Shown here piece by piece: positions 9,110 to 45,923 of a stretch of DNA of 64,000 nucleotides (positions are counted from its first letter, which is position 1; every line of letters starts with the position of its first letter). The notes beneath the pieces are model-generated. The model was given only the letters and a program-made list of their open reading frames with translations. It had not been told where the DNA came from and made no database searches. A program made the translations under genes and the position numbers. Source of the DNA: Blautia sp. SC05B48 (GTDB lineage: Bacteria; Bacillota; Clostridia; Lachnospirales; Lachnospiraceae). Location: contig NZ_CP040518.1 in the NCBI RefSeq assembly GCF_005848555.1, positions 3,177,501 to 3,241,500 of the forward strand. The letters are read 5' to 3'.

Positions 9110-11857
9110 ATGGCAGCTTCAAAAACGACAAAAAAAAGAAAAAGAAAACCTGCGGCGAAGCAGCAGCCTGTCGGTAACCGCTTTCAGACAGAGATCCTGA
9201 TCCTTGTGATGTTTGCGGCCTGTCTGATCCTGATGATCAGTGCATTTGGTATGGGAGGGATCGTAGGAAATGCCATCAGTGCCGTATGTTTTGGCATCAT
9301 GGGACTTTGTGCATATATTTTCCCGATCCTGCTTTTTGCCGGAGTTACGTTCCTGATCGTGAACAATACCAACCGCCTTGCCTACAAAAAGGTACTGGCA
9401 GGCGTGGTATTTTTTGTGTTCCTCTGCGGCTTTCTTCAGCTGATCACAGAGGGCTATACGCCAAGTACCACGTTTTCGGATTATTATTCACTGAGTTCGG
9501 AATACCGTACCGGCGGTGGAGTATTCGGTGGTGCGGTATGTATTTCCACAGCATCCGCTTTTGGTGTTGTGGGCGGAACTGTGATCATCGTTCTGGTGCT
9601 TCTTGTATCTCTCATCATCATAACACAGAGATCCTTCTTCGGATTTATGAATAAGATCCTGGACTTTTTTACAGATGCAGCACGAGAGGGCAAAGAAGCT
9701 TATCTTGAGGGACAGCCGGACAGAGAAAAGCAGAAAGAGCTTCGAAGAAAGATCCGTGCGGAAAAAAGAGCAGAGAAGATCCGCCGGCTGGAAGAAGAGC
9801 TGGAGGAAGAAGAACTTGCCCTTACAGAGGAAGCTCCGGAAAATATCTCAAAAAAACAAAAGAAAAAAGCCAGAAGATCGCAGAAGGAAAGACAGGCTGC
9901 GGTGAAGGCGAACCGGGAAGGAGAATTTAATCTTCCTTCTTTTCTTGATGAACAAAAGGCTGTACTTCCGGCAGATACAGAGCTGACAGAAGAGGATCCA
10001 GGGCTTGAGGAGAAACCGGAGGAGCATGCCCGGCCGCTGGAATTCCAGATCCACCGTTCACAGCCGCAGCCGGCCCGGGAAGAGTCGGAGGAGCCGGATT
10101 TCGAAAGAGAAATGCAGGAAGCCGAAGAGGAGGATGCCTATGACGGCTACGAGGATGTGGATATTCCCGAGATGCAGCAGATCCTGCCGGCAAAGACAGA
10201 TGCAACAGCAAAAGCTTCCCGGGAAACAGGAAAGGCAGCCGTTCTCGCTGAGATAAAGGAGGATCCTCAGCCGGAAGCTGAACAGAAGGCATCCCATCAG
10301 CCCTCCAGAAACCCGAAGTCATCTCAGACAGAGATCGAGCATGGGATCAGAAATATCCAGCATGAGATCAGCCAGGGGGGAGCTCCGGAGAAGAAACCAT
10401 ATCAGTATCCGCCGCTGAAGCTTCTGAAGCGCGGAGATGGCAGATCTCAGGGAGATTCCGATGCACATCTGCGAAAAACAGCACAGAAGCTTCAGGAAAC
10501 CCTGCATAATTTCGGCGTTAATGTAACCGTTACCAATGTGAGCTGCGGACCTACCGTTACCCGCTATGAACTGCAGCCGGAAATGGGTGTGAAGGTCAGT
10601 AAGATCGTTGGTCTTTCTGATGATATCAAGCTGAATCTTGCTACACCGGATATCCGTATCGAAGCACCGATACCGGGAAAGGCAGCCGTGGGGATCGAGG
10701 TCCCGAACAAGGAGAACAGCCCGGTCATGCTGCGGGATCTCCTTCAGTCAGAGGAGTTTAAAAATGCAAAATCCAAGCTGTCCTTTGCAGCAGGTAAGGA
10801 TATTGCCGGAAAACCGGTAGTGGCAGATATTGCCAAGATGCCTCATCTTCTTATCGCCGGAGCAACCGGCTCCGGAAAATCCGTCTGCATCAATACGCTG
10901 ATCATCAGCATCCTTTATAAGGCGACACCGGATGAGGTGCGTCTGATCATGATCGATCCGAAGGTGGTGGAGCTCAGTGTATATAACGGGATCCCGCACC
11001 TGTTCATTCCGGTAGTCACAGATCCGAAGAAAGCGGCCGGTGCGCTGAACTGGGCTGTTTCTGAAATGACCAGCCGTTACAATGCCTTTGCGGAATATGG
11101 GGTACGTAATCTTGGAGAATATAACAAAAAAGTTGCCAATATGCGGGTCCCGGAGGGAGAAAAGGCACCTGAGAAGATGCCGCAGATCGTGATCATCGTG
11201 GACGAGCTTGCGGATCTTATGATGGTTGCGCCGGGAGAAGTTGAGGATGCGATCTGCCGCCTGGCCCAGCTGGCACGTGCAGCAGGTATCCATCTGATCA
11301 TTGCTACCCAGAGGCCATCTGTCAATGTCATCACAGGCCTGATCAAGGCCAATATGCCGTCCAGGATCGCATTTTCCGTATCTTCCGGTGTGGATTCCAG
11401 GACGATCCTAGATATGAACGGTGCCGAGAAGCTTCTTGGCAAGGGCGATATGCTGTTTTATCCTCAGGGGTATCAGAAGCCGGCCAGACTGCAGGGTGCT
11501 TTTGTTTCAGATGAGGAGGTCAGTGCAGTCGTAGAATATGTTTCTGACAAAAACCAGGGTGCTGTTTATGATACCTCCATCGAGAAGCAGGTCAATACAG
11601 CCGGTGTCCCGGGAGGAGCCGGCGGCGGTGACAGAGATGTCTATTTTACAGAAGCCGGTAAATTTATCATTGAGAAGGAAAAGGCCTCCATCGGTATGCT
11701 CCAGCGTATGTTCAAGATTGGATTTAACCGTGCGGCAAGGATCATGGATCAGCTTTGTGACGCAGGAGTGGTAGGCCCGGAGGAAGGAACCAAGCCAAGG
11801 AAGGTTTTGATGTCAGCAGAAGAATTTGAGAATTATCTGGAGGAGAACGGCGGATGA
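9110..11857 (+). CDS. ftsK: DNA translocase FtsK/SpoIIIE
   Basis: Membrane-anchored hexameric ATPase that pumps chromosomal DNA through the closing division or sporulation septum. After a basic N-terminus there are four membrane segments (about residues 20-180), then a charged, low-complexity linker (about 190-440). The RecA-like motor has Walker A AGATGSGKSV and Walker B IIVDELADLMM. The winged-helix gamma domain at the C-terminus (IGMLQRMFKIGFNRAARIMD) would read orienting DNA sequences. I chose the ATG at 9110 with GGGAGGAG upstream; a TTG at 9083 in frame has no ribosome site. 915 aa. The stop overlaps rlmH by 4 bases. FtsK and SpoIIIE cannot be separated from sequence alone. Confidence 0.95.
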   Translation: MAASKTTKKRKRKPAAKQQPVGNRFQTEILILVMFAACLILMISAFGMGGIVGNAISAVCFGIMGLCAYIFPILLFAGVTFLIVNNTNRLAYKKVLAGVVFFVFLCGFLQLITEGYTPSTTFSDYYSLSSEYRTGGGVFGGAVCISTASAFGVVGGTVIIVLVLLVSLIIITQRSFFGFMNKILDFFTDAAREGKEAYLEGQPDREKQKELRRKIRAEKRAEKIRRLEEELEEEELALTEEAPENISKKQKKKARRSQKERQAAVKANREGEFNLPSFLDEQKAVLPADTELTEEDPGLEEKPEEHARPLEFQIHRSQPQPAREESEEPDFEREMQEAEEEDAYDGYEDVDIPEMQQILPAKTDATAKASRETGKAAVLAEIKEDPQPEAEQKASHQPSRNPKSSQTEIEHGIRNIQHEISQGGAPEKKPYQYPPLKLLKRGDGRSQGDSDAHLRKTAQKLQETLHNFGVNVTVTNVSCGPTVTRYELQPEMGVKVSKIVGLSDDIKLNLATPDIRIEAPIPGKAAVGIEVPNKENSPVMLRDLLQSEEFKNAKSKLSFAAGKDIAGKPVVADIAKMPHLLIAGATGSGKSVCINTLIISILYKATPDEVRLIMIDPKVVELSVYNGIPHLFIPVVTDPKKAAGALNWAVSEMTSRYNAFAEYGVRNLGEYNKKVANMRVPEGEKAPEKMPQIVIIVDELADLMMVAPGEVEDAICRLAQLARAAGIHLIIATQRPSVNVITGLIKANMPSRIAFSVSSGVDSRTILDMNGAEKLLGKGDMLFYPQGYQKPARLQGAFVSDEEVSAVVEYVSDKNQGAVYDTSIEKQVNTAGVPGGAGGGDRDVYFTEAGKFIIEKEKASIGMLQRMFKIGFNRAARIMDQLCDAGVVGPEEGTKPRKVLMSAEEFENYLEENGG

Positions 11858-30613: not shown

Positions 30614-33600
30614 ATGAAAAAAAAGCAGCTTTTTGCAGTCCTGCTTGCAGGTTCCATGACTGTTGGAATGGCACCTGCCGCAGCGTTTGCCGCTGAAGAT
30701 ACCGGAGCGGTAACAGAGGCAGAAGCACCGACTGCAGACGAGAATACAGAAACACCAGATGACGGAGCGGCTGTGGATGACCAGTCACAGAGTGAAGCCG
30801 ACGCCCAGGCAGAGGCCGAAGCGCAGGCAGCGGCTCAGGCTCAGGCAGAGGCCGAAGCCCAGGCAGCAGCCCAGGTCCAGGCGGAAGCAGAGGCCCAGGC
30901 AGCAGCTCAGGCTCAGGCAGAAGCAGAGGCCCAGGCAGCAGCTCAGGCCCAGGCGGAAGAGGCGCAGCAGGAGCAGCAAACTACTGCGGCAGATGCAACT
31001 GTTACTACTGCGGAAGAACTACAGGCAGCGATTAATAATGCACCTGACTTTACAGGATCTATTGATGATAGTGATTTATATACATCTGCTTATAAGATTC
31101 TGATCAGTGCATCGTTTAATCTCACAGATACTATTACCGTTCCTGCCAAAAAGAATATTGCAATTTTTGGTGCAACAGATGCTACAACCGTAGTTGGACG
31201 TGGGAGTGTTGCAGGTGATATGTTCAAGGTGAGTGCAGGAAGTATTTTGTCCATGACACAGAATGAAGGTGACGGTTCCTCAGAAATCGGTAAACTTTCT
31301 GTTGAAGGTAATAAAAACGACGGAACCGCAGCAGATGGATCGATCGTTTCTGTAGAAGCTGGCGCTAAATTTGTGATGACGACAGGCGTTACTCTTTCTA
31401 AGAATGTCTCTACTGCAGTAGGTGCGGCAGTTAAAAACAGCGGTAAACTTGTGATTACAGGTGGCGAGATCAAAGATAATGTATCTACAGGTGGAGCTGT
31501 TTACAGCACAGGTACGATTTCCCTGGAACAAGGAACGAATGCTGCAGCAGACGAACCGAAGATTATCGAGAACTATACAAGCGGAGATAAGAGCGTAAAA
31601 TCCAATATCGTATTAGGACAGCAGGATCAGAGTGCAGGAAGTATCATCATTGCCGGCGCATTTGAGAATCAGAATATTGGATATTCCGTAGAGAATCCGA
31701 CAGTTGACTATACAGTTTTCCAGAAACCTGAATCTTTAGCTGCGGATGCATTTGCAAAAGCAGTTAATGCGATGAGCTATGAAGGCGACCAGAGTTATGG
31801 AATAAATACAGCTACAGGTCAGCTTGTTTCTAATAAACCAACGATTACTATTGATAGTGCTACAAGTGAAGAAGCAAATACTGTTTCTGTAACCTTCACA
31901 TCTGATAAAGCAGGTACATATTTCTATAAATATGTTGCAAAAGGTGCGGAAGCTCCGACTATCGAGAAAGCTATAGAAGGTGGAACGGTTAAGGCAGGAG
32001 AAACCACTTCCCTGAAACTTACCAATGTCACAGACAAGACTATTGACCTTTATATATGGGTAAAAGAAAGTGAAAGTGGTAACAACATTGTTGGTGAAGG
32101 TGTAAAGAAGGAGATTGCAGTAACCCAGGCACAGAATCCAGACAATCCGAAACCGGCAGCACCAAAGGTTACTAAAATCAGCGCAAAGAGAAAAACTGCA
32201 ACAACTGCAGAAGTAGTTCTTCAGTCCGATAAGAGTGGTACATGCTATTATAAATGGGTGGCAAAGGGAGCGGATAAACCTTCCATTAGCACAACTAAAG
32301 ACAGCAATATTGAGATCACTGAAAACAAAGATTTTAAGATTGATCTGAAAAACCTGAAAGGTGATGCGATTGATCTCTATGTACAGGTAGTAGCGAAAGA
32401 TGGATCAGAGTCAGCAGTAACAAAGATTGCAACTGTTACTTTGAAAGAAACAGCGAAAACACCTGCGAAGATTTCCAACGTAAGCTACAAATGGAAAGGT
32501 CATACATCTGCTACTGTAACTATGCGTTCTGATAAAGCTGGTGTGTACTATTATAAATGGGTAAATCGTGGTTCCAAAGCTCCGACAGTTGATAAAATGA
32601 GCAAGGGAAAAAATGTTTCTGCAAATAAGGATTTCACGATCAGTTTGAAAGATTTGGATGCAAACAATGCAATTGATGTTTATGTGAGCATCAAAGGAAC
32701 TGATGGAACTGTAAGTACACCAAAGAAGATTGCATTGGATGAAGCTAAGCGTCCGGCAAATGTCAGATGGGTTGGATTTTCATGGATCAACCATACATCT
32801 GCGAATGTTACTCTTATTTCGAATAAGAGCGGTACCTGTTATTATAAATGGGTTTCTCGTAACAGTGATGGCACGTCTGCCACTCCGAAAGATCTTACAT
32901 CTACCGGAAAACAGACAACGTTTACTGCTGATAAGAAATTTAATATCGGTCTTGAGGATTTAAACTCTGACAATCCAATTGATCTTTATATCCAGATCAA
33001 AGATAAGAATGGTGTTTTGACGAATCCATTGAAAATAGCATTTAAAGAAGATTCCAGACCGAAAGTTGCAGATCCAACTCCGACTAACACACCGAATGCA
33101 TACATCCCGGATGTAAAAGAGAGCATAGTACAGGGACTGGACGAGGCAATTCAGTTCTATCCGAATCAGTTCTATGAATTTACTGTGATCGGTGCAGGAA
33201 CAACCAACCAGGATCCAAATGAGGGTGATGTGAAGTGGGTTCCGGTTTACTGGAGTACAGCTGCAAACCCAACCCAAAGCCAGATGCATACAGCATGGAA
33301 GATTGGTTCCGCCAAGGGAATCAACAAAGACGCTACATACAACCTGTATGTATTCTTCCAGAAATACATCTACACCGGTGGTCAGTGGCAGCAGACAGAT
33401 ACTATTGAATCTGCGGTATATCAGTTTAAATCTGCAAAACTGACACCTACCGGAACTCCGGGAGCAGATGGTTCATATGGCGGCGGTCAGACAGGCTCTA
33501 ATCCGGACGCAACAATAACAGGAGAGGCATCCGCAACATCCTCCAACGGAGGCAACGGAACCAGATCCAGAAACGCAGTATCAACAGCTGATAACTCACC

Positions 33601-33685
33601 GGTCGGAACCATGTCCGCACTGGCAGTGGCATCACTTCTTGCAGGTGGATATGTGATCGTGAGAAGAAGAAAAAAAGATATTTAA
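30614..33685 (+). CDS. Large repeat-containing surface protein
   Basis: Secreted surface protein of 1023 aa; no enzymatic role recognised. Residues 1-28 are a signal peptide ending AAFAA. Residues 65-118 hold a 12-residue Ala/Gln/Glu repeat, probably a helical rod. Residues about 130-400 look like a parallel beta-helix (VVGRGSVAGDMF, GAAVKNSGKLVITGGEIKDN). Four modules of about 100 residues follow, each with a (Y/F)YK(W/Y)V core near 435, 543, 643 and 741. A C-terminal domain (about 830-950) precedes an anchor: DNSPVGT, hydrophobic helix, then RRRKKDI. No canonical LPxTG is present, so anchoring may be sortase-like or simply by the membrane helix. An adhesive role is inferred. Confidence 0.8.
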   Translation: MKKKQLFAVLLAGSMTVGMAPAAAFAAEDTGAVTEAEAPTADENTETPDDGAAVDDQSQSEADAQAEAEAQAAAQAQAEAEAQAAAQVQAEAEAQAAAQAQAEAEAQAAAQAQAEEAQQEQQTTAADATVTTAEELQAAINNAPDFTGSIDDSDLYTSAYKILISASFNLTDTITVPAKKNIAIFGATDATTVVGRGSVAGDMFKVSAGSILSMTQNEGDGSSEIGKLSVEGNKNDGTAADGSIVSVEAGAKFVMTTGVTLSKNVSTAVGAAVKNSGKLVITGGEIKDNVSTGGAVYSTGTISLEQGTNAAADEPKIIENYTSGDKSVKSNIVLGQQDQSAGSIIIAGAFENQNIGYSVENPTVDYTVFQKPESLAADAFAKAVNAMSYEGDQSYGINTATGQLVSNKPTITIDSATSEEANTVSVTFTSDKAGTYFYKYVAKGAEAPTIEKAIEGGTVKAGETTSLKLTNVTDKTIDLYIWVKESESGNNIVGEGVKKEIAVTQAQNPDNPKPAAPKVTKISAKRKTATTAEVVLQSDKSGTCYYKWVAKGADKPSISTTKDSNIEITENKDFKIDLKNLKGDAIDLYVQVVAKDGSESAVTKIATVTLKETAKTPAKISNVSYKWKGHTSATVTMRSDKAGVYYYKWVNRGSKAPTVDKMSKGKNVSANKDFTISLKDLDANNAIDVYVSIKGTDGTVSTPKKIALDEAKRPANVRWVGFSWINHTSANVTLISNKSGTCYYKWVSRNSDGTSATPKDLTSTGKQTTFTADKKFNIGLEDLNSDNPIDLYIQIKDKNGVLTNPLKIAFKEDSRPKVADPTPTNTPNAYIPDVKESIVQGLDEAIQFYPNQFYEFTVIGAGTTNQDPNEGDVKWVPVYWSTAANPTQSQMHTAWKIGSAKGINKDATYNLYVFFQKYIYTGGQWQQTDTIESAVYQFKSAKLTPTGTPGADGSYGGGQTGSNPDATITGEASATSSNGGNGTRSRNAVSTADNSPVGTMSALAVASLLAGGYVIVRRRKKDI
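30806..30967 (+). repeat. 36-bp tandem repeat coding Ala/Gln/Glu-rich rod
   Basis: Copies begin at 30806, 30842, 30878 and 30914, with a partial copy at 30950. They encode variations of AEAEAQAAAQAQ. Exact 36-base multiples keep the frame, so copy number could vary between strains. Confidence 0.9.
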
Positions 33686-35554: not shown

Positions 35555-36088
35555 ATGAAACACAAGATGAGAACAATAATGCTGCTTCTTCTGGCTATGC
35601 TGCTGCTATGCCCTATACAGGTTCTGGCTGCAGATGGAGAGAACGCAGTGAAAACAGATCTGGAGGACGGAGAATATTCCATACAGGTGGAACTGGAAGG
35701 CGGAAGCGGAAAGGCCAGCGTTTCTTCCCCCGCACTGATGCTGGTAAAAGAGGGGAAGATGTATGCACGGCTCCAGTGGAGCAGCTCCAACTATGATTAC
35801 ATGATCGTAGATGGGGAAAAATATCTCAATGAGAGTGAGGAAGGCAGAAATTCTGTTTTTACTGTCCCGGTAACTGCCCTGGATGATAAGATGGAAGTGA
35901 TCGCAGATACACTGGCCATGGGTGCCCCTCATGAGATCGATTATACACTGACCTTTTATGAGGCTTCTATTGGCTCCAAGGGCCAGCTTCCTCAGGAGGC
36001 AGCGAAAAGAGTGGTTGCAGTTGCGCTGGTGATCATCATCGGAGGCGGTATCCTGAATTATTTTGTAAACAAAAGGAATCGGTGTTAA
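35555..36088 (+). CDS. Membrane-anchored NEAT-like domain protein
   Basis: Small surface protein, 177 aa. A signal peptide (about residues 1-25, ending QVLAA) is followed by one beta-sandwich domain resembling NEAT heme-binding domains: LEDGEYSIQVELEGGSGKASV, the tyrosine motif NYDYMIVDGEKY and HEIDYTLTFYEA. A C-terminal membrane helix (VVAVALVIIIGGGILNYFV) and a basic tail anchor it. Heme or iron binding is suggested by the family but not proven here, and no iron transporter lies next to it. It has its own promoter and terminator, so it is expressed alone. Confidence 0.7.
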   Translation: MKHKMRTIMLLLLAMLLLCPIQVLAADGENAVKTDLEDGEYSIQVELEGGSGKASVSSPALMLVKEGKMYARLQWSSSNYDYMIVDGEKYLNESEEGRNSVFTVPVTALDDKMEVIADTLAMGAPHEIDYTLTFYEASIGSKGQLPQEAAKRVVAVALVIIIGGGILNYFVNKRNRC

Positions 36089-36165: not shown

Positions 36166-37059
36166 ATGGATACAGTACAGGATAAAACCTACGAAGCAAT
36201 TTATTATTCACTGTGGGAGGCTGCCAGGCGTTACAGCGGCTTTACGCAGTTTCGGGTGATCGGAAAAAGCCACGATGACCGGATGATCCCTATGCTGGAG
36301 ATCGGACATGGAGATGCCTGTATTTTCTGTGTGGCCGGCTTTTCCGGAACGGATGGACAGATGACGGACAGGCTTACCAGGATGGCACTGGAGCTTTGCA
36401 GGATATATGAATGCAACTGGACCGTGGACGAGCTTTATGAGGTAAAAAAGCTCCTGGATCAGACCAGGCTTTGTATCATACCGGTGGTCAATCCGGATGG
36501 ATATGAGATCTGCCGGAAGGGCTACAATACTGTGCGAAATCCCATTTTCCGTCAGATGCTGAAAATGCAGGATGTTCCCTGTGATGAATTCGAGGGGAAT
36601 GCAAGAGGAATGGATACTGCACGGAATTTTCCCACCACCTTCTGCAGCAGAAAAAAGATCCATCAGCAGCCTGCCAGTGAAAATGAGACACGGGCGCTGA
36701 TCCGGATCTTTCAGGAATACGGAGGACGTGGCCTGCTGGTTTTCTGTGGATATGGGAAAAAGGTGGTTTATTACCGGCGGGATCAGAATTTTTCCACTGG
36801 TCAGAGATGCTACCGTCTTGCACGTCACTTAAAAAAATGTACCAGGGGAAAGCTGGAGCAGCTGGCAATAGAACGAGAAGTGCAGAACGGGCGAAGGAGC
36901 ACAGGCAGGCCGGAACAGTATTACGGAGAAATGATCCGTCAGCCGGCTTTCCGGATCGAATTGCCGGTAAATTCCGGAAATAAAGAAGAGGAAGAACGGG
37001 AAATCTGTGATCTGCTGCTCCTTCCATTGGAATATATTTACTCTCTGGTACAGCTGTAA
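36166..37059 (+). CDS. M14 peptidase-like protein with replaced zinc ligands
   Basis: Cytoplasmic protein of 297 aa with the zinc-carboxypeptidase (M14) fold but without the standard zinc site. The ligand motif, usually AGxHGxE, reads AGFSGTD (His to Ser, Glu to Asp, near residues 62-68), and the third ligand, usually a histidine, is the Cys in VFCGYGKKV. The substrate-binding parts are kept: IIPVVNPDGYEI, NARGMDTARNFPT and the catalytic glutamate in FRIELP. No signal peptide. It may be a pseudoenzyme that binds peptide ends, or it may bind metal through Cys/Asp. Stands alone between the NEAT-like gene and the sipW operon. Confidence 0.75.
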   Translation: MDTVQDKTYEAIYYSLWEAARRYSGFTQFRVIGKSHDDRMIPMLEIGHGDACIFCVAGFSGTDGQMTDRLTRMALELCRIYECNWTVDELYEVKKLLDQTRLCIIPVVNPDGYEICRKGYNTVRNPIFRQMLKMQDVPCDEFEGNARGMDTARNFPTTFCSRKKIHQQPASENETRALIRIFQEYGGRGLLVFCGYGKKVVYYRRDQNFSTGQRCYRLARHLKKCTRGKLEQLAIEREVQNGRRSTGRPEQYYGEMIRQPAFRIELPVNSGNKEEEEREICDLLLLPLEYIYSLVQL

Positions 37060-37542
37060 AAAAATCTGGCGTTGTGCGGATGCAGGGTCTGTCAGCTTAT
37101 GAAAAATAGGGTGGCAGACATACCCGCTGAGAAACCAGTGTCGAATCCTGTCGGACGAATTTGATTGACTTCCGGGGCTGCGAACCCTATAATAACATCA
37201 TCTGAAACAAATCTTTTTTAACAAATGTTGCAGGAATTCTTCCATCTCTGTATGTGATGAGAGGAACTGTACATCTGAGCATATCTGCTCGAATAATTTC
37301 CATTCAGTATTTTTGCTGTATTATCATTTTGATCATGCTTGTCCCCACTTCAAGATCTGCGAGTTTAAGTGATGGGAGCATGTTGCGAACTGCCATATTA
37401 ACTGCTATACAGGGAGGACTTTTTTATGGCTCAATTTATGTGGAGCAGGTCTCCGCCGGAATTTTTCTGATGTCCGAACACTGTTTCTTTCCCTGCAGAG
37501 GGAAGTGATCATCAAATATCGTATATAGAACAGAATACAGGA
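37060..37542. other. 483-base gap: structured segment, promoter and long leader of the sipW operon
   Basis: Right after the M14-like gene, GGGT-CTGTCA pairs with TGGCAG-ACCC (37087-37127 region) and GTCgAATC pairs with GATTGAC; neither has a T-run. A near-perfect promoter follows (37165-37193), giving a leader of about 340 bases before sipW. The leader holds a GAGCA/TGCTC hairpin near 37277-37290, a TTCCCT/AGGGAA hairpin near 37488-37503, and a 14-codon reading frame at 37426-37470 with a good GGGAGGA in front. An 84-codon frame at 37254-37508 has no ribosome site. I recognise no known riboswitch. Confidence 0.6.
37165..37193 (+). promoter_or_regulatory. Strong sigma-A promoter of the sipW-tasA operon
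   Basis: TTGACT (37165-37170), 17 bases, TATAAT (37188-37193). Confidence 0.82.
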
Positions 37543-38022
37543 ATGAAAATATTTTTTCGATGTATCGGCAACACGGTTCTTGGGCTGATGCTGGTGACAG
37601 CATTGGTACTTTTAATTCCCGGACTTTTCGGGATCCGGCCCTATGTGGTCTATTCCGGTTCCATGGAACCTGAGATTCCAACCGGAGCTGTGGTTTTTAC
37701 AAAGGAAGGAGAGTTTTCTCCGAAAAAGGGAGATATCATTACTTTTCATAACGGAGATACCGTTGTCACCCACAGAGTGGTAAAAAAAGAAAAGGATATC
37801 TTTATCACAAAAGGTGACGCCAACAAGACAGAAGATCCTGTTCCCGCAGAGGCGTCACAGATCATCGGGCGGGTAGTCTTTCACCTGCCTTATCTGGGCT
37901 ACGTGATCCATTTTCTGAAAGCCCGGATCCCTTTTGCCGCAGTTTGCATTGCGGCATGTCTGTCAGTACTCTTTGATCTGGCATATACCCCAAAAAAGAA
38001 AAAAATACAGGGAGGAATTTAA
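37543..38022 (+). CDS. sipW: Signal peptidase I, SipW (archaeal/ER) type
   Basis: Membrane signal peptidase of the SipW class, which processes TasA/CalY-type fibre proteins. N-terminal helix at about residues 10-30; the catalytic Ser40 in YSGSMEP and His77 in VVTHRVV follow the Ser/His arrangement of the ER-type enzymes rather than the Ser/Lys of usual bacterial ones. KGDANKTEDP is the conserved acidic block, and a second helix lies near the C-terminus. 159 aa. The ribosome site (ACAGGA) is weak and very close to the ATG. First gene of a five-gene operon with its likely substrates directly behind it. Confidence 0.9.
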   Translation: MKIFFRCIGNTVLGLMLVTALVLLIPGLFGIRPYVVYSGSMEPEIPTGAVVFTKEGEFSPKKGDIITFHNGDTVVTHRVVKKEKDIFITKGDANKTEDPVPAEASQIIGRVVFHLPYLGYVIHFLKARIPFAAVCIAACLSVLFDLAYTPKKKKIQGGI

Positions 38023-38024
38023 TC

Positions 38025-38672
38025 ATGATGAAAAACAGAAAACTGGTAAAAGGAATCGCACTTGCTGCTGTGATCACTGCACTGGCAGCCGGAGGAACAG
38101 CGGCATATCTTACGGATTTTGAAACGGCAACCAACAGCTTTACCGTAGGAAAAGTGGATATCGACCTGGATGAGCCTAACTGGAAACCGGAGGACAATAC
38201 AGATCTGGTTCCTACTCAGGTGATCCGGAAGGACCCCTATGTATCAAATAAAGGAGTAAATGAAGCATTTGTATATCTGGAAGTTTCTGTTCCGGTCCGA
38301 AATGTGATCACGGCAGCCAAGGATGGCACCAGGAATGCGCTTGCAAAAACAGAGCTGTTCAGCTTCACCAAAAACAAGGACTGGACACAGCTGGAGCGGA
38401 CCGAAGTGGGGCAGAATATGGTCTATACCTATGCATATAATCACATCCTGAAGCCGGGAACAAAGACAACAACTCTTTTTGATACAGTAACCTTTGCCAA
38501 TATCATCGAAGGTCAGCTGGATACACAGCAGATCGATATGCCGGTACGGGCTTATGCGATCCAGGCTACCAATACCGGTGATGACAAGACTACGGTTCTG
38601 GAGCAGGCAACTGCTGCTTACCAGAAATATGTAAATCAGAATAAAGGACAGGCCGGTGGTGTCACGAAATGA
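38025..38672 (+). CDS. TasA/CalY (camelysin)-like secreted protein
   Basis: Secreted protein of 215 aa, predicted SipW substrate and fibre subunit. The N-terminus (LAAVITALAAGGTAAYLTDFE) is the SipW-type signal with the AAYxTD cleavage neighbourhood, followed by the TasA/CalY start TNSFTVGKVDIDLDEPNW. The body is a jelly-roll-like domain in the family (NKGVNEAFVYLEVSVPV, VYTYAYNHILKPGTKTTTLFDTV). No anchor at the C-terminus. Starts 3 bases after sipW with GGAGG upstream; the ATG at 38028 is an alternative. Fibre formation is inferred from family and context. Confidence 0.85.
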   Translation: MMKNRKLVKGIALAAVITALAAGGTAAYLTDFETATNSFTVGKVDIDLDEPNWKPEDNTDLVPTQVIRKDPYVSNKGVNEAFVYLEVSVPVRNVITAAKDGTRNALAKTELFSFTKNKDWTQLERTEVGQNMVYTYAYNHILKPGTKTTTLFDTVTFANIIEGQLDTQQIDMPVRAYAIQATNTGDDKTTVLEQATAAYQKYVNQNKGQAGGVTK

Positions 38673-39253
38673 ATAGATTAAAAAGACCCGCTTTTTTTCT
38701 CCTGACAACAGGGCTCCTGTGTGCAGCAGGGACTGCGGCGTATTTTTCAGATTTCGAAAAAAAGATAAATTCTGCTGCTGTGGGGTATGTGACAACGGAG
38801 ATCGAGGAGGATTTTCCGGATCCTACACCTACGCCTATGGAGAATGGTCCGTCCTACAGAAAAGAGATCCGGATCGGGAATTTTTCCGGCAGTGTGAAAG
38901 GGTTCCAGGCAGACTGCTATGTGAGGATGTCCCTTTCCTACTCCAATGACGATATCGGCAGAGGCGTAAAATTAACAGGTCTGGATACGGCAAACTGGGT
39001 GTATAACAGTCAGGACGGCTATTATTACTACCGCAAAAAGATATCCGAGGGAGAAAAAACAGCTCCTCTGTGTACCGGATTTCAGATTGATCCCCAGAAG
39101 ATCGATGATACTTACAGGGACAGCATTAAAGATTTTGAGATCAATGTTTATGAGGAAGCTGTACAGGCAGAAGGATTTTCAGATTATGAAAGTGCGTGGA
39201 GGTATTTTTCATATCCGGTTTCTGCTCAGGCAGAAAGGAGGGGAAATGCTTGA
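38669..39253 (+). CDS. Second TasA/CalY-like secreted protein
   Basis: 194 aa with a short SipW-type signal (PAFFLLTTGLLCAAGTAAYFSDFE) and the family opening INSAAVGYVTTEIEEDF. The domain includes SGSVKGFQADCYVRMSLSY and a C-terminal EINVYEEAVQAEGFSDYESAWRYF. It starts in ATGA overlap with the preceding gene and ends in TTGA overlap with the next. It differs enough from its neighbour to be a minor subunit or adaptor rather than a recent duplicate (inference). Confidence 0.82.
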   Translation: MNRLKRPAFFLLTTGLLCAAGTAAYFSDFEKKINSAAVGYVTTEIEEDFPDPTPTPMENGPSYRKEIRIGNFSGSVKGFQADCYVRMSLSYSNDDIGRGVKLTGLDTANWVYNSQDGYYYYRKKISEGEKTAPLCTGFQIDPQKIDDTYRDSIKDFEINVYEEAVQAEGFSDYESAWRYFSYPVSAQAERRGNA

Positions 39254-40473
39254 AGAAACACCTTAAAGTCCTGCTGGCAGGTGCTGTTATAGCAGGCAGT
39301 ATCCTGGCGTGCACGGCTGCTTATGCCAGATTTTCAGATTCCGTGACAGTGACCAATCACATAGCAGTGGGAGATATCAATATTTCTCTCAGGGAACTGG
39401 AAAAAAAGGACGGCAGAGAAATGAAATATCAGGATCGCCGGATCGTTCTTCCGGGAGATGAGATATCCAAGATCCCCAGGATCACCAATCATTCAGAGCC
39501 ATGCTGGGTAAGGGTGAAGATCTCTTATACAGATGATCTGGAAGGTTTGGATGGTCTGGATGACAGGAATCTTACAGGAATGTCACCGAGATGGATCCGG
39601 AAGGGAGAGTATTTTTATTATACCAGGAAGCTGGAACAGGGAGACAGCGTGGATATTTTTACCGGTGTGACTGTACCATCCCAATGGGATGAATCCTACC
39701 AGGATAAGAAGCTGGGGATCACCATCGTGGCAGATGCTGTCCAGGCGGCAAATTTTGCACCGGATTTCCGTGCCATGTCACCCTGGGGAAATCAGAAGAT
39801 CTTAAGATGTATCCACGATACCGATGGTCTTGTGGTTCAGAAAAAAAGTCCGGTGGATCTGAAGGTGAAGTTTGAAGGAAACGCGCACAAACTGATCGCA
39901 GCTCCGGAAGACTTTTTTTCCGGATTTTCAACGGCAATGCCGGGAGATGTTTTTCATGATTCTGTAGAGATCAGTAACACAACGGAGCATGCTGCAGAGA
40001 TATTCTTCCGCACATCACCGGAATGTAAATCGGTAAAGGATCAGGAATTTCTGAAAAAGCTGAAGCTGGTGATCACCATGAATCATAAAAAGCTGTATTC
40101 CGGGGATCTTTTGGCTGTGTCTCTCAATAAAGCCGTGTCCCTGGGGGAATTTTCCAGTGGAGAAAAAGGAAACATGAGATTTGAAGTTACGGTTCCGGCA
40201 GAGCTGGATAATTTATATGCTCTTCGGGCAGCAGACGTGAAATGGATCTTTTCTGTGGAGGAGGATCAGGAGACGTTGGAAACCAGTTCCGTCCCACGCC
40301 GGAATGACAGGAAAGAAGCCACAGAAAGAGCTTCCGGAAATAACAGTTCTTCGGTAAGGACAACACCAGTGAAGACCGGAGATGAATCTCCTGTGCTCCT
40401 GTTTGCACTGATGGCTGGTATGGCGTTGCTTACCTGCAGTCTGACGCTATGGAAAGGAGGACGAAAAAATTGA
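39250..40473 (+). CDS. TasA-like protein with C-terminal wall-anchor-like tail
   Basis: 407 aa. SipW-type N-terminus (LLAGAVIAGSILACTAAYARFSD) followed by VTVTNHIAVGDINISLRELE. The first half resembles the preceding TasA-like proteins (CWVRVKISYTDDLEG; ITIVADAVQAANFAPDF), while the second half is a separate domain. The tail TPVKTGDESP, a hydrophobic helix and KGGRKN resembles a cell-wall sorting signal. I set the start at TTG 39250: AGGAGGGG is about 7 bases upstream and it overlaps the previous stop as TTGA. It may be the anchor or base of the fibre; no sortase gene is in the window. Confidence 0.82.
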   Translation: MKKHLKVLLAGAVIAGSILACTAAYARFSDSVTVTNHIAVGDINISLRELEKKDGREMKYQDRRIVLPGDEISKIPRITNHSEPCWVRVKISYTDDLEGLDGLDDRNLTGMSPRWIRKGEYFYYTRKLEQGDSVDIFTGVTVPSQWDESYQDKKLGITIVADAVQAANFAPDFRAMSPWGNQKILRCIHDTDGLVVQKKSPVDLKVKFEGNAHKLIAAPEDFFSGFSTAMPGDVFHDSVEISNTTEHAAEIFFRTSPECKSVKDQEFLKKLKLVITMNHKKLYSGDLLAVSLNKAVSLGEFSSGEKGNMRFEVTVPAELDNLYALRAADVKWIFSVEEDQETLETSSVPRRNDRKEATERASGNNSSSVRTTPVKTGDESPVLLFALMAGMALLTCSLTLWKGGRKN

Positions 40474-43400
40474 AAAGAAGAATGATCGGTGCATGGATGG
40501 CATTGATGATCACAGCTTCTTCTCTTGTGGTTTCGGCCAGTCCTGCAGCAGATATGAGTTCGGTATCAGCAGATCCGCAGCAGGAACAGGCAGAACCGGA
40601 GAAAGAAGAGGAGGCCCCGGATATTCCGGCGACGTCTCAGCCTGGGGAGGCCGAGATGCTGGTTCCGACAGCCTTGCCTGAACAGGAAACGGTGGAGGAA
40701 GCTTTTGAAGAAGGTGAAGATAATGCTGAAAATACTGACAGTGATGAGCTGACCGAACCGGAAGTTGCTTCAGAAGAAGGAGAAAATATAGCTCTGACAG
40801 AAACACCGGAGCAGGCGGAAGATCCGGGATTTATCGTTTTTACGGAAGAAAATGCAGAAATCCTCACAGCGGAAAGCGAAGAGGATCAAAAACTGATCCA
40901 GGAGATTGAAAACGGAGAGATCATTGCCCTTTCTGCAGCACTTCCGGGGAAGATCCTGGAAGCAGGCAGTGCGGAAGTGATTTCAGAGGGAGAGGATTCC
41001 CTTGCAGTTACAGCACTTTCCCCGTCCCAGTATTATCTGGACAGCTGGACCAGGGTTTACTGCGATGAGATCTGGACAGCTGCCAATGATTTTCTTGGTC
41101 CCGGAAATAAAACCCGTATGGGATGTACGTATCGTTCTGTACATTATATCGATGATACAGGAGAGGAGAAGGTTTCACCTCTGTATTGCCTGAAAGCGAC
41201 CCAGGATGGGCTGGACAGTATGACACTGAAGAATGAGGCAGTAAAAGCACTGACTAATTCTGTGATCCAAAAGCTTTTGTACTTTGGTTACGGAGGACCG
41301 GGGGATCTGGGGACCGGATATGACCCCTCCTGCAGTCACATAGACTGGTCAAAATGGCAGAACCGTTATGTATTCACGCATATTGCATTGTCAAAGGTAT
41401 ACTTTAATGACTGTGGATATGCCACAGCAGCAGAAGTAGAACATACAGGGATAAACCGCCTGATCGATAAGATCCAAACATTGACGATCCCTGCAAGAAA
41501 CAAGGCAGCCGTTTATGTTTCCGAAGATGGTTCCTGGTCGGCAGCATCCGGAAAGACGATCCCCTTAAGTGTATTCCGAAGCAGACCAGCAGGTTTTCCC
41601 TTTGTTCCGGACAGTATGAAGGACGGATTTCAGATGAGTACTCTTATGAAAGTGACAGACGGAGCAAAAGCAGGAAATGGGATCACCATTACCAGAGGAG
41701 CTGCAGAAAAATGGCAGCTTGCCTACTGGACAAGTGCAGCGGAGTATAATTCTCACAAATCCAATCCCAAAATGATGTCGGGAACAAGCCTGAACCTGAA
41801 GGATGGAGCATACTTTTTTCTGATCTTTCCGTTAAATGCATCTGCTACAAAGAAGTTTTCCTGCAAAATGCTGCTTCAGCCGGTTTCCTATATCTTGGTT
41901 GACGGAAGTGCACAGGCAGGAAAAGATGGAGTACAGGATTTTGGCGCTTACGTATATCAGGGAACAAGAGGAAGCCTTTCGTTTTCAGTAAAGCCATCGG
42001 TTTACGGCAATGCAAAGCTGGTCAAGAAGGAACCCAACACGGGAAAACTGATCCAGGGAGCGCAGTACGGACTGTTTGCAGCAGAAGCTCTGACCTCCGG
42101 ATACCGGACTATGTACAGTAAGGATCAGAAGGTTTCATCCGGAACAACAAACGCCAGTGGAGAGATCCTTTTTTCAAAGCTGCTTCCCGGAAAATATTAT
42201 GTGAAGGAAACTAAAACCGCTGCCGGATACAAGCTGAACACCGTTATCAAAAATCTTACAGTAACCGGTGGAAAGACAACAACCGTCAACGTAACGGATA
42301 TCATGGATATCAGTGGAACAGTATCCATCAGAAAGAAAGATGGAAATACCGGTGATCCACTGGCAGGAGCTGAATTTACCCTGTATCAGTGGAGTAAAAA
42401 AAGCAAAAGCTATGTAACCTTAAAAAAACTGACTTATGATGGACAGAAACGTATCTATAACTCCGAGAAATTTAATTATACCGAAGACAATCAGGGAAAA
42501 TTCCGTGTACGGGAGACAAAAGCTCCACCCAATTACACCGGAAACTGGCAGAAAAATTTTACGTTGGAAAAGCCGGGAGAAAAGCAGGAATTTCTGTTTG
42601 AAGCAGTGAACTATCAGAACGAAAAACGAAGGATAGAGGTTCGTAAGATCGATGCGAAGACCGGTGAGGTCCTGAAGGGTGCGGAGTTTACACTTTATGA
42701 ATACAGCGCAGCCAAAAAAGCCTATAAAGAAAAAGGAACACTCCTGAATTATGATAGCTCAAGTGAGCTTTATGTAAGCGGTGAACTTTTAAAGACCTCG
42801 GATAATGAGGGAAAATATAAGATCATGGAAACAAAGACTCCGCCCGGATATACAGGAAGCTGGGAAGAAGAAGTAAATATCACAGACAAGGATGCCCGCC
42901 TTTCCTTTGAAGTTGTCAATGAAAAGGAAAAGGAATATACAGGAGTGATCCGACTGAGAAAAACAGACATTTATACCGGGGAAGTTCTGGAAGATGCTGA
43001 ATTTACTGTGCTTCAGTGGAACAGAGAGAACCAGACTTACCAGGATGACCTGGGCGGGCAGAGTATCCTGAAGTTTGACGTAGAAACCGGATGGTACTCT
43101 ACTGAAGAGCTGGTGCTTACAGATGCCAATCAGGGAAGGTTCAAAGTAGTGGAAACAAAAAATCCGGAGAACTATACAGGCAAATATGAAAAGGAGGTAA
43201 TCTTCCAGAAAAAAGCAAATACAGATACGGATACTGTGGATCTGAAAGCAGAGAATACTCCGGTAACACTTCCGCTGGGAAATATCACCATCGTAAAAAA
43301 GATCAAAGAGGAGGATATTACCTGGGCTCATGGAAATCCAACCTTTTCCTTTGTGGCAGAAGGTACGGATCTATCCGGAAATCCTCACAGATATGAGGAT

Positions 43401-43742
43401 TATGTGACCTTTACCAGAGGAAGCTATGAAACTGATAAAAATGGATATGCAACATTATCGGTCACTCTCAGGAATATCCCGCTGGGGCAGTATACGGTCT
43501 GGGAAAAACCGGTACTACGCTATTATCTGAAAGAGGTATGGGCAAATACAGAGAATGTCCGCATCATAAAAGGCGCTGCACCTGCATATGGTACAGATCC
43601 CCGGAAGATTGCTTCCGGTACGGCTGCTCTGACAATGCAAAACAAAAATGCATCGCTGACTTTTGTAAATGAGAAATCCAGATATGATCGATATTCCCAT
43701 AATGACAGCATAAAAAATACCATACCCGTATCATTTTCCTGA
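40470..43742 (+). CDS. Surface adhesin with thioester-like domain and Cna-B repeats
   Basis: Secreted protein of 1090 aa. A signal peptide (residues 1-24) is followed by an acidic low-complexity stretch (about 25-190). A thioester-domain-like region follows (about 190-440): PLYCLKATQDG, LYFGYGGPGD, FTHIALSKVY; the residue after T where many such domains have Gln is His. Four Cna-B/SpaA-type beta domains (about 510-920) repeat the E-T glutamate motif (VKETKTAAGY, VRETKAPPNY, METKTPPGY, VETKNPENY). A last pilin-like domain (about 930-1060) follows. No LPxTG and no membrane helix end the protein. TTG start at 40470 with AAAGGAGG 9 bases upstream and TTGA overlap. Adhesion is inferred. Confidence 0.85.
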   Translation: MKRRMIGAWMALMITASSLVVSASPAADMSSVSADPQQEQAEPEKEEEAPDIPATSQPGEAEMLVPTALPEQETVEEAFEEGEDNAENTDSDELTEPEVASEEGENIALTETPEQAEDPGFIVFTEENAEILTAESEEDQKLIQEIENGEIIALSAALPGKILEAGSAEVISEGEDSLAVTALSPSQYYLDSWTRVYCDEIWTAANDFLGPGNKTRMGCTYRSVHYIDDTGEEKVSPLYCLKATQDGLDSMTLKNEAVKALTNSVIQKLLYFGYGGPGDLGTGYDPSCSHIDWSKWQNRYVFTHIALSKVYFNDCGYATAAEVEHTGINRLIDKIQTLTIPARNKAAVYVSEDGSWSAASGKTIPLSVFRSRPAGFPFVPDSMKDGFQMSTLMKVTDGAKAGNGITITRGAAEKWQLAYWTSAAEYNSHKSNPKMMSGTSLNLKDGAYFFLIFPLNASATKKFSCKMLLQPVSYILVDGSAQAGKDGVQDFGAYVYQGTRGSLSFSVKPSVYGNAKLVKKEPNTGKLIQGAQYGLFAAEALTSGYRTMYSKDQKVSSGTTNASGEILFSKLLPGKYYVKETKTAAGYKLNTVIKNLTVTGGKTTTVNVTDIMDISGTVSIRKKDGNTGDPLAGAEFTLYQWSKKSKSYVTLKKLTYDGQKRIYNSEKFNYTEDNQGKFRVRETKAPPNYTGNWQKNFTLEKPGEKQEFLFEAVNYQNEKRRIEVRKIDAKTGEVLKGAEFTLYEYSAAKKAYKEKGTLLNYDSSSELYVSGELLKTSDNEGKYKIMETKTPPGYTGSWEEEVNITDKDARLSFEVVNEKEKEYTGVIRLRKTDIYTGEVLEDAEFTVLQWNRENQTYQDDLGGQSILKFDVETGWYSTEELVLTDANQGRFKVVETKNPENYTGKYEKEVIFQKKANTDTDTVDLKAENTPVTLPLGNITIVKKIKEEDITWAHGNPTFSFVAEGTDLSGNPHRYEDYVTFTRGSYETDKNGYATLSVTLRNIPLGQYTVWEKPVLRYYLKEVWANTENVRIIKGAAPAYGTDPRKIASGTAALTMQNKNASLTFVNEKSRYDRYSHNDSIKNTIPVSFS

Positions 43743-43750
43743 AAAATGCA

Positions 43751-43775
43751 GAGGGGCAGGAGTAATCCTGCCCTC
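43751..43775 (+). terminator. Hairpin closing the sipW operon
   Basis: GAGGGGCAGGA pairs with TCCTGCCCTC around GTAA, with one bulged G. The following sequence is AT-rich but without a clean T-run. Confidence 0.65.
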
Positions 43776-43901
43776 AGCTGCGTATTTTATATAGTAAAAA
43801 ACAAACTGTAAAAAGAAATAAAAAAACTACATATATACCCAAAGATATGGTATACTTTTTTACAAATACTGTGAACTCAAGAACTCTCTGGGAGGTCGAT
43901 G

Positions 43902-45923
43902 ATGAAAACAGACGAAAAAAATCCCGTTTTTGATATTCGGGATACATTGGAAAAATACGCTTGCATTTATCGAAATACTACACTGAAGATTTTTCAGTAC
44001 TGTCAGGAGACGGACACATATGAACGTCTGGATGAATACCTGAGACCTGTAAAAAATATTACGGATTTTAAGAACAGTGGACAGAAATACAGCAATGTTT
44101 ATAAAGACGACTGGAAGTTTCTGACGGATTTTCTGACATCCCGGGAAGGCGGGACGATAGAAGTTCGGTGTATCAATAAAGACGGTAATGCGGGTCTTAT
44201 GACAGTACGGGGATTTATAGCACAGGACAAAAATACTGGATATCATTATTTTATAGGAAGCTCCAGAGATATCACCAGGGAGAAGCTACAGGAAGAATTT
44301 CTTGAGGAACGTGCCCAAAAAGATCCTCTGACCGGACTGTATAACCGCTTTTTCGGAAAAGAACTGATCGATGAATACCTTGCATCCAGAAATCCCTATG
44401 CAGGATGCGGGATGATGGTGCTTGATGTGGATTATTTTAAAAATGTAAATGATACTTACGGACATATGTTCGGTGATGAAGTCCTGAAACGTTTTGCAGA
44501 GCTGTTTGTGGCTTTGTTCGACATCAATGATGTGATCATGCGTCTGGGTGGCGATGAATTTGTGATCTTTTTGAAGGACATCGGACATGCCACTATCATG
44601 AAAAAGGCAGGAAAGCTGATCCGGGAAGTGCAGAAACTCAAATTTCCCGGAACCACATATCTGGCAACTTGCAGTGTAGGGATCTGCTTTCTTCCGGAAA
44701 ATGTTTCCGGATATACATATCAGCAGCTCTTTGAAAATGCAGACTGGGCACTTTACCAGGCAAAGAAAAATGGAAAAAACCGCTATGCTTTCTGTGATAA
44801 TCTGAGACATTTTGAGGATAAGACAGAGAAAAAGCAGGAATTATATGAGGGTGTTGAGATAGATGCCAGATATCTTCATAATGATATTGTTTCTACTGCA
44901 TTTGAAATATTTGAAAAAATGAGCAGCTTTCAGACTGCTATTGAACTTCTGATGAAAGTGATCGGTCTGAAATTCCGACTTAACCGGATCACAATCCTGC
45001 GTACTGAAGTGGCAGAGCAGAAAACAGACCGGATTTTTCAATGGGTTTCGGAAGAGGACTACAGACTTTTGATAGATGAGATCCATTTTTTAAAAAGTGA
45101 TTTTATCACATTATTTCGCCATAACGATGAATATGGTACTGTGGTCCTTCAGGAGAGCGATCTGGCTGATTATTCGGAACAGGGAAGAAAGAATGTGTTA
45201 CAAGGTGGAGCAAAAACCGTAGTCTGTGCTGCCATGTACTGTGAAGGAAGCTATACAGGAACTATTGTATATGTGACCTGCCGGGAAAAAAGACTCTGGT
45301 CCAGAGAAGACCGTAAACTGCTGGGAGAAGTTACCAAGATCATTTCCGCGCATTATGCCAAGAACCAGGCATTTAACAGTGTTTATCGTGGCATTGCTGC
45401 AGAATCCGGATGGGATCAGCTTACCGGATTGTCTTCTTTTTCAAGATTTCGAGAAGATGTGGAGAAAATGCTGATCGGAGGTTACGGTCCGGGACATGCA
45501 GTGATATATACCGATTTTGAAAAATTTAAACGTATCAATGCAAAATACGGATACCGTGTGGGAGATCAGATCCTGCGGCAGTTTTCCGAGTATGTGATAA
45601 GCGTTCTAAAAACAGATATGGATACATATTTTACCAGGGCGATCTCTGATCATTTTATCCTCTTCACTCCCTATGATATGGATGGTGATCCGGAAACATT
45701 TGCTTTAAAGATTAATCAGGAATTCTTACGGCAGATGAAAGAGAAATACCCGGATATGAAGCTCTGTGTCCGCACGGGGATCTATCTGATCACCAAAGAA
45801 TGTGCCAATGCATCTGAGGCAATCGATGCAGCGAATTATGCAAGAAAATATGCTGCTGAAAACTGCGAAACAGGTGTTAAGCTGTATGACGAAGAACTGA
45901 AAAAGCAAAGCGATGCAGAGTGA
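43902..45923 (+). CDS. Double-GGDEF protein (one intact, one degenerate domain)
   Basis: Predicted diguanylate cyclase, 673 aa, cytoplasmic. Residues about 1-130 are PAS-like (TMMKTDEKN-type start is avoided; the ATG at 43902 has GGAGG 6 bases upstream). GGDEF domain 1 (about 135-300) has DPLTGLYNR, DVDYFKNVNDTYGH and the intact RLGGDEF near residue 216; no RxxD inhibitory site is seen just before it. A GAF-like middle (about 320-500) leads to a second GGDEF-like domain (about 510-670) where the motif is AISDHF, so it should be inactive and may be regulatory. No EAL domain. It lies directly after the fibre/adhesin operon. c-di-GMP synthesis is inferred. Confidence 0.87.
   Translation: MKTDEKNPVFDIRDTLEKYACIYRNTTLKIFQYCQETDTYERLDEYLRPVKNITDFKNSGQKYSNVYKDDWKFLTDFLTSREGGTIEVRCINKDGNAGLMTVRGFIAQDKNTGYHYFIGSSRDITREKLQEEFLEERAQKDPLTGLYNRFFGKELIDEYLASRNPYAGCGMMVLDVDYFKNVNDTYGHMFGDEVLKRFAELFVALFDINDVIMRLGGDEFVIFLKDIGHATIMKKAGKLIREVQKLKFPGTTYLATCSVGICFLPENVSGYTYQQLFENADWALYQAKKNGKNRYAFCDNLRHFEDKTEKKQELYEGVEIDARYLHNDIVSTAFEIFEKMSSFQTAIELLMKVIGLKFRLNRITILRTEVAEQKTDRIFQWVSEEDYRLLIDEIHFLKSDFITLFRHNDEYGTVVLQESDLADYSEQGRKNVLQGGAKTVVCAAMYCEGSYTGTIVYVTCREKRLWSREDRKLLGEVTKIISAHYAKNQAFNSVYRGIAAESGWDQLTGLSSFSRFREDVEKMLIGGYGPGHAVIYTDFEKFKRINAKYGYRVGDQILRQFSEYVISVLKTDMDTYFTRAISDHFILFTPYDMDGDPETFALKINQEFLRQMKEKYPDMKLCVRTGIYLITKECANASEAIDAANYARKYAAENCETGVKLYDEELKKQSDAE

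Follow-up and report, generated by a model that had tools for sequence, protein, structure and literature searches.

The closest described relatives of the gene cassette considered here are fiber systems that include TasA-like proteins. In Bacillus subtilis, the tapA-sipW-tasA genes yield SipW-processed subunits that have the TasA fold and use an N-terminal donor strand, as set out in the passages of PMC9674648 and PMC10151520 that deal with these proteins. The sipW-bsaABCRSD operon of Clostridium perfringens, an anaerobic member of the Clostridia, likewise places SipW beside several secreted proteins, one of which is the TasA-like polymer of the BsaA filaments (PMC7395162, in its description of the operon). 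A related cassette lies in Blautia sp. SC05B48 (NZ_CP040518.1, positions 3,177,501 to 3,241,500 of the forward strand; this stretch of 64,000 nucleotides [nt] is called the window, and all coordinates are window positions). It encodes a SipW-type signal peptidase, three TasA-like secreted proteins (TasA1, TasA2, and TasA3), and a large adhesin whose C-terminal tail resembles the N-terminal strand of TasA-like subunits. The interpretation that we favor, with moderate confidence, is a SipW-processed, donor-strand-assembled fiber of the TasA/BsaA type, anchored by TasA3, to which the adhesin would be docked by its C-terminal strand. To our knowledge, how Gram-positive gut commensals might hold adhesins that have no LPXTG motif is a little-studied question.

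A SipW/TasA cassette with a large adhesin

The SipW, TasA1, TasA2, TasA3, and adhesin genes form a tight unit on the + strand behind a conserved promoter. The SipW-type (endoplasmic reticulum [ER]/archaeal-type) signal peptidase (37543..38022, +; 159 amino acids [aa]) is separated by 2 nt from TasA1 (38025..38672, +; 215 aa), and the subsequent genes overlap one another: TasA2 (38669..39253, +; 194 aa), TasA3 (39250..40473, +; 407 aa with a TTG start and two TasA-like domains), and the adhesin (40449..43742, +), the start of which is ambiguous (ATG at 40449, giving 1,097 aa, or TTG at 40470, giving 1,090 aa). The adhesin comprises a signal peptide, an acidic linker, a thioester domain, SpaA/CnaB domains, and a C-terminal docking domain. 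All six open reading frames (ORFs) listed in the initial annotation of this DNA, the sixth being a GGDEF protein downstream of the adhesin, were found where it had placed them, and the SipW-type signal regions that it reported can be read from the translations as AAYLTD in TasA1, AAYFSD in TasA2, and AAYARFSD in TasA3.

SipW passed the cut-off of the archaeal/ER-type signal peptidase model TIGR02228 (95.3 bits, cut-off 51.85) and scored below that of the Bacilli SipW equivalog NF046067 (80.4 bits, cut-off 190); residues S40, H77, D92, and D98 were each present in 34 of 34 aligned sequences. TasA1 passed both PF12389 (TasA/camelysin; 40.7 bits, cut-off 22.5) and TIGR04088 (SipW-dependent signal peptide; 36.7 bits, cut-off 19). 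PF12389 had no match in TasA2 and reached 16.5 bits in TasA3, and TIGR04088 gave 15.2 bits for TasA2 and 13.9 bits for TasA3, all below the same cut-offs; the kinship of these two proteins was established by direct homology, with TasA2 homologous to the N-terminal part of TasA3. The cut-off of the BsaA family TIGR04090 (60 bits) was reached by neither TasA1 (33.9 bits) nor TasA2 (32.6 bits). The predicted models display the jelly-roll fold of the TasA/camelysin family. A fold search with the TasA3 model was diffuse using Foldseek alone, with the TasA fiber at rank 37, and a second comparison with VIA brought TasA structures to ranks 1 to 3. Sequence searches of the PDB found no relatives of TasA1 and, for TasA3, only weak matches to unrelated proteins (E values of 0.3 and 0.76).

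The head of the adhesin places it in the TED_2 family of thioester domain proteins: both its SpaA domains and its TED_2 domain exceeded the Pfam cut-offs (for TED_2, PF20610, 40.1 bits against 27), and the motifs [PVI][LVI][YF]C[LM] and Q[DN][FLY]G, which would form the predicted thioester, occurred in all 18 same-genus adhesin frames with the TED motif. An adhesin without a thioester had been suspected on the grounds that TQ reads TH in the helical motif; this idea was dropped, as that motif is described as nonessential in the relevant part of PMC4450167 and the motifs that contain the Cys and the Gln are conserved.

The adhesin tail and the TasA donor strand

The C-terminal domain of the adhesin with its tail (43254..43739, +; here the WAHGNP domain) was delimited from two alignments and has a CnaB/pilin-like fold in the predicted model. 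No Pfam family scored above its cut-off in this domain, a PDB sequence search with the tail domain returned weak matches only (best E value, 0.014), and both alignments displayed for the adhesin in such a search fell in its SpaA region. The protein has neither an LPXTG motif nor a membrane anchor, and its last residues are YSHNDSIKNTIPVSFS. The first alignment (A1) covers the adhesin C-terminal domain and omits the truncated L058 (fetched genomic loci are labeled L0xx or L1xx, and genomes G0xx). The second (A2) comprises the window plus 49 of the 52 loci fetched with the tail domain. The three omitted are L101, a near-duplicate of L100; L120, whose frame ends without the tail; and L123, whose protein ends LSDCCYVLNQVSGQSS, which fits the tail pattern. 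Across loci the heads of the adhesins vary, the window having a thioester domain, and the tail is constant.

The tail itself, YSHNDSIKNTIPV (residues 1082-1094; 43692..43730, +), follows the pattern Y-S-H-x5-N-x-I-x-V, with its Asn in all 50 rows of A2 and its His in 45. Directly after the presumed SipW site, the TasA-like proteins carry the N-terminal pattern [YFL][ST]D-x5-N-x-[IFV]-x-V in the same register, represented by YLTDFETATNSFTV in TasA1 (residues 28-41; 38106..38147, +), YFSDFEKKINSAAV in TasA2 (residues 25-38; 38741..38782, +), and FSDSVTVTNHIAV in TasA3 (residues 28-40; 39331..39369, +). The donor strand of B. subtilis TasA is placed at N-terminal residues 28-38 in the account of PMC9674648; the N-terminal segments of the Blautia TasA-like proteins would be equivalent to it by position. 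In the predicted model of the adhesin, the tail has no secondary structure, and the last two blocks have predicted local distance difference test scores (pLDDT) of 59 and 65. Because the CnaB domain looks complete, the tail is read as a donor rather than as part of an acceptor, for which TapA offers a precedent, being a complete immunoglobulin fold that donates its N-terminus as described in part of PMC10151520.

The 52 loci, with 1,979 ORFs and 427,509 windows, were scanned with a profile built from 35 nonredundant tails. Five non-tail windows scored above 14 bits, and all five were N-termini of TasA-like proteins; of the 17 above 10 bits, 10 were such N-termini, some of them closely related to each other. 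Among sequences having the Asn, and after redundancy removal, the donor segment was the top-scoring window in 9 of 15 TasA1, 13 of 25 TasA2, and 9 of 16 TasA3 proteins, counts that column-permuted profiles equaled in 1, 1, and 0 of 1000 trials, respectively. In TasA3 of the window, the profile scored 17.5 bits at the donor segment, against -1.9 for the next best window.

A different function for the tail, that of a recognition or cleavage signal for SipW, would agree with the start of the shared pattern right after the AAY region and with SipW being encoded alongside. It is improbable, however, given that the tail stands at the C-terminus behind a folded domain, that none of the 50 rows of A2 has a hydrophobic run of at least 15 residues, or a sorting-like motif, among its last 45 residues, and that the best-kept residue, the Asn, lies about ten residues downstream of the presumed cleavage point of the TasA-like proteins.

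Conservation and linkage of the cassette

A search of 98 genomes found TasA3 in 45, every one of them from the same genus, with the caveat that weaker matches may be paralogues. Forty stretches were fetched, of which the 36 with a TasA3 orthologue (L032 to L067) were counted and four with divergent arrangements (L068 to L071) were excluded. The order SipW-TasA1-TasA2-TasA3 was kept in 33 of the 36, the exceptions being L042 and L063, which begin at a contig end, and L067; the adhesin came next in 32, and the other four (L046, L051, L054, and L056) reach a contig end within 2.4 kilobases (kb). L067, in which SipW had no match, is the one miss of the seven that lies away from contig ends. The five-gene cassette proposed in the initial annotation is thus borne out within the genus. 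Three of the divergent same-genus cassettes (L069 to L071) have the order TasA2, TasA3, SipW, TasA1, adhesin-like gene, and their adhesin-like frames end tail-like, in TDTDFVRNVV or SHTDFVRNVV/I.

When loci were fetched from a collection of named genomes by the tail domain alone, 47 of the 52 had a TasA-like gene, 43 had SipW, and 40 had all five genes. The gene order of the window recurs in the Fusicatenibacter loci; Blautia parvula, Oliverpabstia, Marvinbryantia, and others have a rearranged one. The cassette is conserved across Blautia and also occurs, rearranged in part, in other Clostridia. Five loci had neither SipW nor a TasA-like gene; in three of these (L087, L090, and L096), the sequence begins at a contig end, within the adhesin.

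A wider comparison used 299 Lachnospiraceae genomes, nearly one per genus, with the tail and TasA1 listings compared by eye. The tail model matched 32 of these genomes and the TasA1 model 51. At all 25 places (in 23 genomes) where the tail scored an E value below 1e-6, the TasA1 model also matched the same contig, no more than about 5 kb away; among the matches listed, this held for two of the nine weaker places. At the level of the class, the tail model matched 5 of 291 genomes, one of them the genome under study. Of the other four matches, three lie beside SipW and TasA-like genes, including L152, whose protein does not end in the tail; the fourth, L153, lacks both, and its match may fall on a CnaB domain that is unrelated.

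These results bear on a simpler account, that of a plain TasA/BsaA-type matrix in which TasA1 to TasA3 form fibers, the adhesin is freely secreted, and the tail serves folding, protection, or secretion. Such a matrix would suit an adhesin that has no anchor, and C. perfringens BsaA is reported to polymerize without BsaB and BsaC and to occur mainly in the extracellular fraction (PMC7395162, in the passages on BsaA). We consider this account unlikely, although a good deal less so than the SipW-signal explanation, since it leaves aside both the tail's adjacency to a TasA-like gene in every one of the 25 strong cases and the match in register that the profile scan found between the tail and the TasA-like N-terminal strand.

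Several observations weigh against a docked adhesin on a donor-strand fiber. The loose form of the motif, present in 47 of 50 tails and 29 of 35 TasA1 sequences, was found in only 19 of 39 TasA2 and 19 of 40 TasA3 sequences, and omission of the Asn column from the profile lowered the top-window counts to 3 of 15, 7 of 25, and 5 of 16. Within the window the strong match is to TasA3 alone, the donor segments of TasA1 (-4.5 bits) and TasA2 (-9.5 bits) not being the best windows of those proteins. The Asn is missing in 6 of 40 TasA3 rows, and the tail retains it in five of those loci. The best TasA3 model has a mean pLDDT of 77. The adhesin frames of L120 and L152 end without the tail; L084 and L122 have the tail within wide flanks and no SipW or TasA-like gene nearby; and the 51 genomes matched by the TasA1 model divide into 25 with a linked tail and 26 without one, among the matches listed. 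In L084, from a Blautia metagenome-assembled genome, the tail-bearing adhesin (6611-10489) stands in a 20-kb stretch that contains no SipW or TasA-like gene, and a full cassette is present on another contig (L086), the fiber of which the L084 adhesin may use in trans.

Proposed fiber assembly, anchoring, and docking

In the proposed assembly, SipW would cut the special signal peptides of TasA1, TasA2, and TasA3, and cleavage would free the N-terminal strand of each subunit to complete the beta-sandwich of a neighboring one, by donor-strand exchange as in B. subtilis TasA. TasA1 would likely be the shaft and TasA2 a minor subunit or adaptor; TasA3, with its second TasA-like domain and a VKTGD signal, is likely the wall-anchored end. 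The adhesin would be exported through its ordinary signal peptide and attached without a sortase: its 13-residue tail, behind a complete CnaB-like domain, would copy the donor strand and fill an empty TasA-like groove, leaving the heads exchangeable and the docking end constant. Since the tail and the TasA3 strand are the most alike, two options present themselves for the groove: both strands may fit the same one, or the tail may replace TasA3's own strand in the second domain of TasA3. The structural alignment with 5of2 spans TasA3 residues 28..339, of which only the first and last are reported, and hints that in the model the TasA3 N-strand packs on that protein's own second domain; this is a lead for that domain as the possible socket of the tail. 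Both the groove used and the adhesin-bearing end of the fiber are putative.

The anchoring of TasA3 is suggested by a C-terminal sorting-like signal, PVKTGD followed by a hydrophobic helix and a basic tail (40366..40470, +). It reads VKTGD rather than the canonical LPXTG, and T376 and G377 are kept in 39 and 35 of 40 aligned sequences, respectively. Five sortase matches were found in the genome, and beside two of them a 549-residue reading frame ends in SVKTGDDTP and a hydrophobic segment. These features would also accommodate a sortase-type pilus, in which one of the five sortases joins the adhesin and the subunits through VKTGD-like motifs. There is no sortase inside the cassette, however, and such a C-terminal motif is absent from TasA1, TasA2, and the adhesin tail in all 50 A2 rows, which makes a pilus of this kind about as improbable as the SipW-signal function of the tail. 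The initial annotation had proposed a fiber with base, shaft, and adhesive part; the wall-sorting-like signal of TasA3 and the donor-strand-like tail of the adhesin sharpen this idea, in which the fiber itself is putative.

The strand Asn is invariant in the aligned tails, TasA1, and TasA2 (N37 in 35 of 35 TasA1 and N34 in 39 of 39 TasA2 sequences) and present in 34 of 40 TasA3 sequences, and a Lys and a Glu are conserved across the TasA-like subunits (E50, K69, and E162 in TasA1 and E47, K65, and E163 in TasA2, each in all of the same sequences). This leaves open an intersubunit Lys-Asn isopeptide bond that would lock the adhesin covalently to the fiber. Recombinant C. perfringens BsaA polymers resist sodium dodecyl sulfate and formic acid according to the part of PMC7395162 devoted to them, and by analogy such resistance would fit the covalent variant.

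Extended to a general proposal, many gut Clostridia may carry exchangeable adhesins on TasA-type fibers by means of a C-terminal donor-strand mimic, as a sortase-independent plug and socket. We put this forward tentatively, with somewhat less confidence than the fiber at the Blautia locus; the literature searched, which covered few subscription papers, yielded no description of such an attachment. Should the tail prove to be a donor strand, the adhesin of a fiber could be recognized in genomes with the aid of a single short motif, and donor-strand assembly, described for TasA and TapA, would come to include adhesin attachment. Testable ideas on anchoring and on coupling to the sporulation regulator come from TasA3, with its VKTGD signal, and from a Spo0A-box-like element upstream of the cassette.

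Promoter region and the adjacent diguanylate cyclase

The cassette is preceded by a sigma-A promoter, TTGACT-17-TATAAT (37165..37193, +), which matches 11 of 12 consensus positions and both boxes of which are recognizable in three close relatives (L032 to L034). Taken by itself the consensus match is weak evidence, because the same scan gave 29 promoter-like sites for the region of 10.8 kb, compared with 17.3 in shuffles. The presumed leader of about 340 nt (37194..37542, +) is poorly conserved downstream of the promoter. A known RNA element in the leader was considered and set aside, as the Rfam search gave chance-level matches only and none at the gathering score.

Directly upstream of the -35 box lies the Spo0A-box-like element, TGTCGAATCCTGTCGGACGAATTT (37139..37162, +), which is nearly unchanged in L032 to L034. 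It has a single copy in the genome at up to three mismatches, and because there is no second copy, no regulon can be read from it. The Spo0A box is given as TGNCGAA in the relevant passage of PMC7643835. Of 34 upstream regions from the genus, the window included, 23 had this sequence on the sense strand, against a shuffled mean of 3.45 (maximum, 10 in 500), and 1 had it on the antisense strand; TGNCGRA followed by TTGAC within 5 to 25 nt occurred in 16 of 34, against a shuffled mean of 0.12 (maximum, 3 in 200). These counts are not independent, given that the species are related and that the shuffles preserve nothing but base composition. Of the 40 named loci with all five genes, 20 had the box, most of them of the Blautia type; from L106 on, it was present in 1 of 12. 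The genome contains two Spo0A_C matches. Since the element is partly palindromic in several species, a regulator other than Spo0A is possible.

Downstream of the adhesin lies a GGDEF protein with a second, degenerate GGDEF domain (43899..45923, +). The first motif is intact and the second reads ISDHF, so that only the first domain looks catalytic. The initial annotation had counted this predicted diguanylate cyclase as the sixth gene of the locus and linked the fiber to cyclic di-GMP (c-di-GMP). A fiber under c-di-GMP control, with this protein as regulator of the cassette, would draw on its position directly 3' of the adhesin, on its intact first domain, and on the four c-di-GMP-I riboswitches of the genome. 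None of the four is at the cassette locus, however, and among the 28 loci of the genus in which the sequence continues for 2 kb or more beyond the adhesin stop, a single one (L032, from the sister species; 94% identity) has the cyclase there; the other 27 have no cyclase match within 3 kb of the adhesin. L033 and L034 keep the flanks of the window, with the NEAT-like and M14 genes upstream and DacF, MoaB-like, phosphatase, and ScpA genes (labels given by similarity to window genes) downstream, and between adhesin and DacF frames they have gaps of 151 and 122 nt, respectively, in place of the cyclase. Homologues with 44 to 49% identity in G009, G012, G013, and G026 are on contigs other than that of the cassette. 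A strong terminator-like hairpin after the adhesin (43740..43789, +; -29.2 kcal/mol over 71 nt folded, z -5.62), which a consensus terminator scan did not list, separates the two genes. Because of this hairpin and the presence in 1 of 28 testable loci, the cyclase looks unrelated to the cassette; it is probably outside the cassette's transcription unit and probably not part of the fiber system, and c-di-GMP control is the least probable of the alternatives considered, to be regarded as very unlikely. The sixth gene and the c-di-GMP link of the initial annotation are not supported. A search for c-di-GMP-II riboswitches had no positive control and carries no weight. The frames beside the four c-di-GMP-I riboswitches (L142 to L145) include several large response-regulator-like frames; none of those printed was recognized as TasA-like, and no family searches were made on them. 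The Spo0A-box-like element is the better regulatory lead.

Other genes encoding surface or secreted proteins lie upstream of the cassette. Just 5' of it are a NEAT-like secreted protein with a C-terminal membrane segment (35555-36088, +; PF05031 below cut-off) and an M14 zinc carboxypeptidase (36166-37059, +), both retained in L032 to L034, the M14 gene being upstream also in L037, L052, and L057. A further surface protein, of 1,023 residues (30614-33685, +), is secreted, has a repetitive N-terminal stretch rich in Ala, Gln, and Glu, and ends in a hydrophobic segment plus RRRKKDI.

Comparison with known systems

Compared with the C. perfringens bsa operon, as the latter is described in PMC7395162, the Blautia cassette has no two-component genes, and it adds an adhesin with a constant docking domain and a TasA3 with a sorting-like signal. 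In B. subtilis, the strand giver is the accessory protein TapA (PMC9674648 and PMC10151520, in the same passages as above), whereas the putative strand giver in Blautia is a large adhesin with a C-terminal strand; no TapA was seen in the Blautia cassette, which has three TasA-like paralogues instead. The TasA/CalY/CapP filaments of Bacillus cereus resemble the proposed fiber in being sortase independent and in combining two TasA-like proteins with an accessory protein; in the account of PMC13082335, the third component is chaperone-like and CalY itself is said to be the adhesin, whereas Blautia has a separate thioester/CnaB adhesin. The archaeal thread filament is likewise a donor-strand chain for which a cap protein has been proposed as strand donor, but its subunits are different and its strand is N-terminal, and no adhesin is described in the passages of PMC9715654 concerned. 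Finally, Gram-positive thioester domain adhesins share with the Blautia protein an N-terminal thioester domain followed by repeated CnaB-type domains; by the account in PMC4450167 they almost always end in an LPXTG anchor, whereas the Blautia adhesin ends in a docking domain and a donor-strand-like tail. The docking tail is thus the new element, and the system extends the known TasA/BsaA type.

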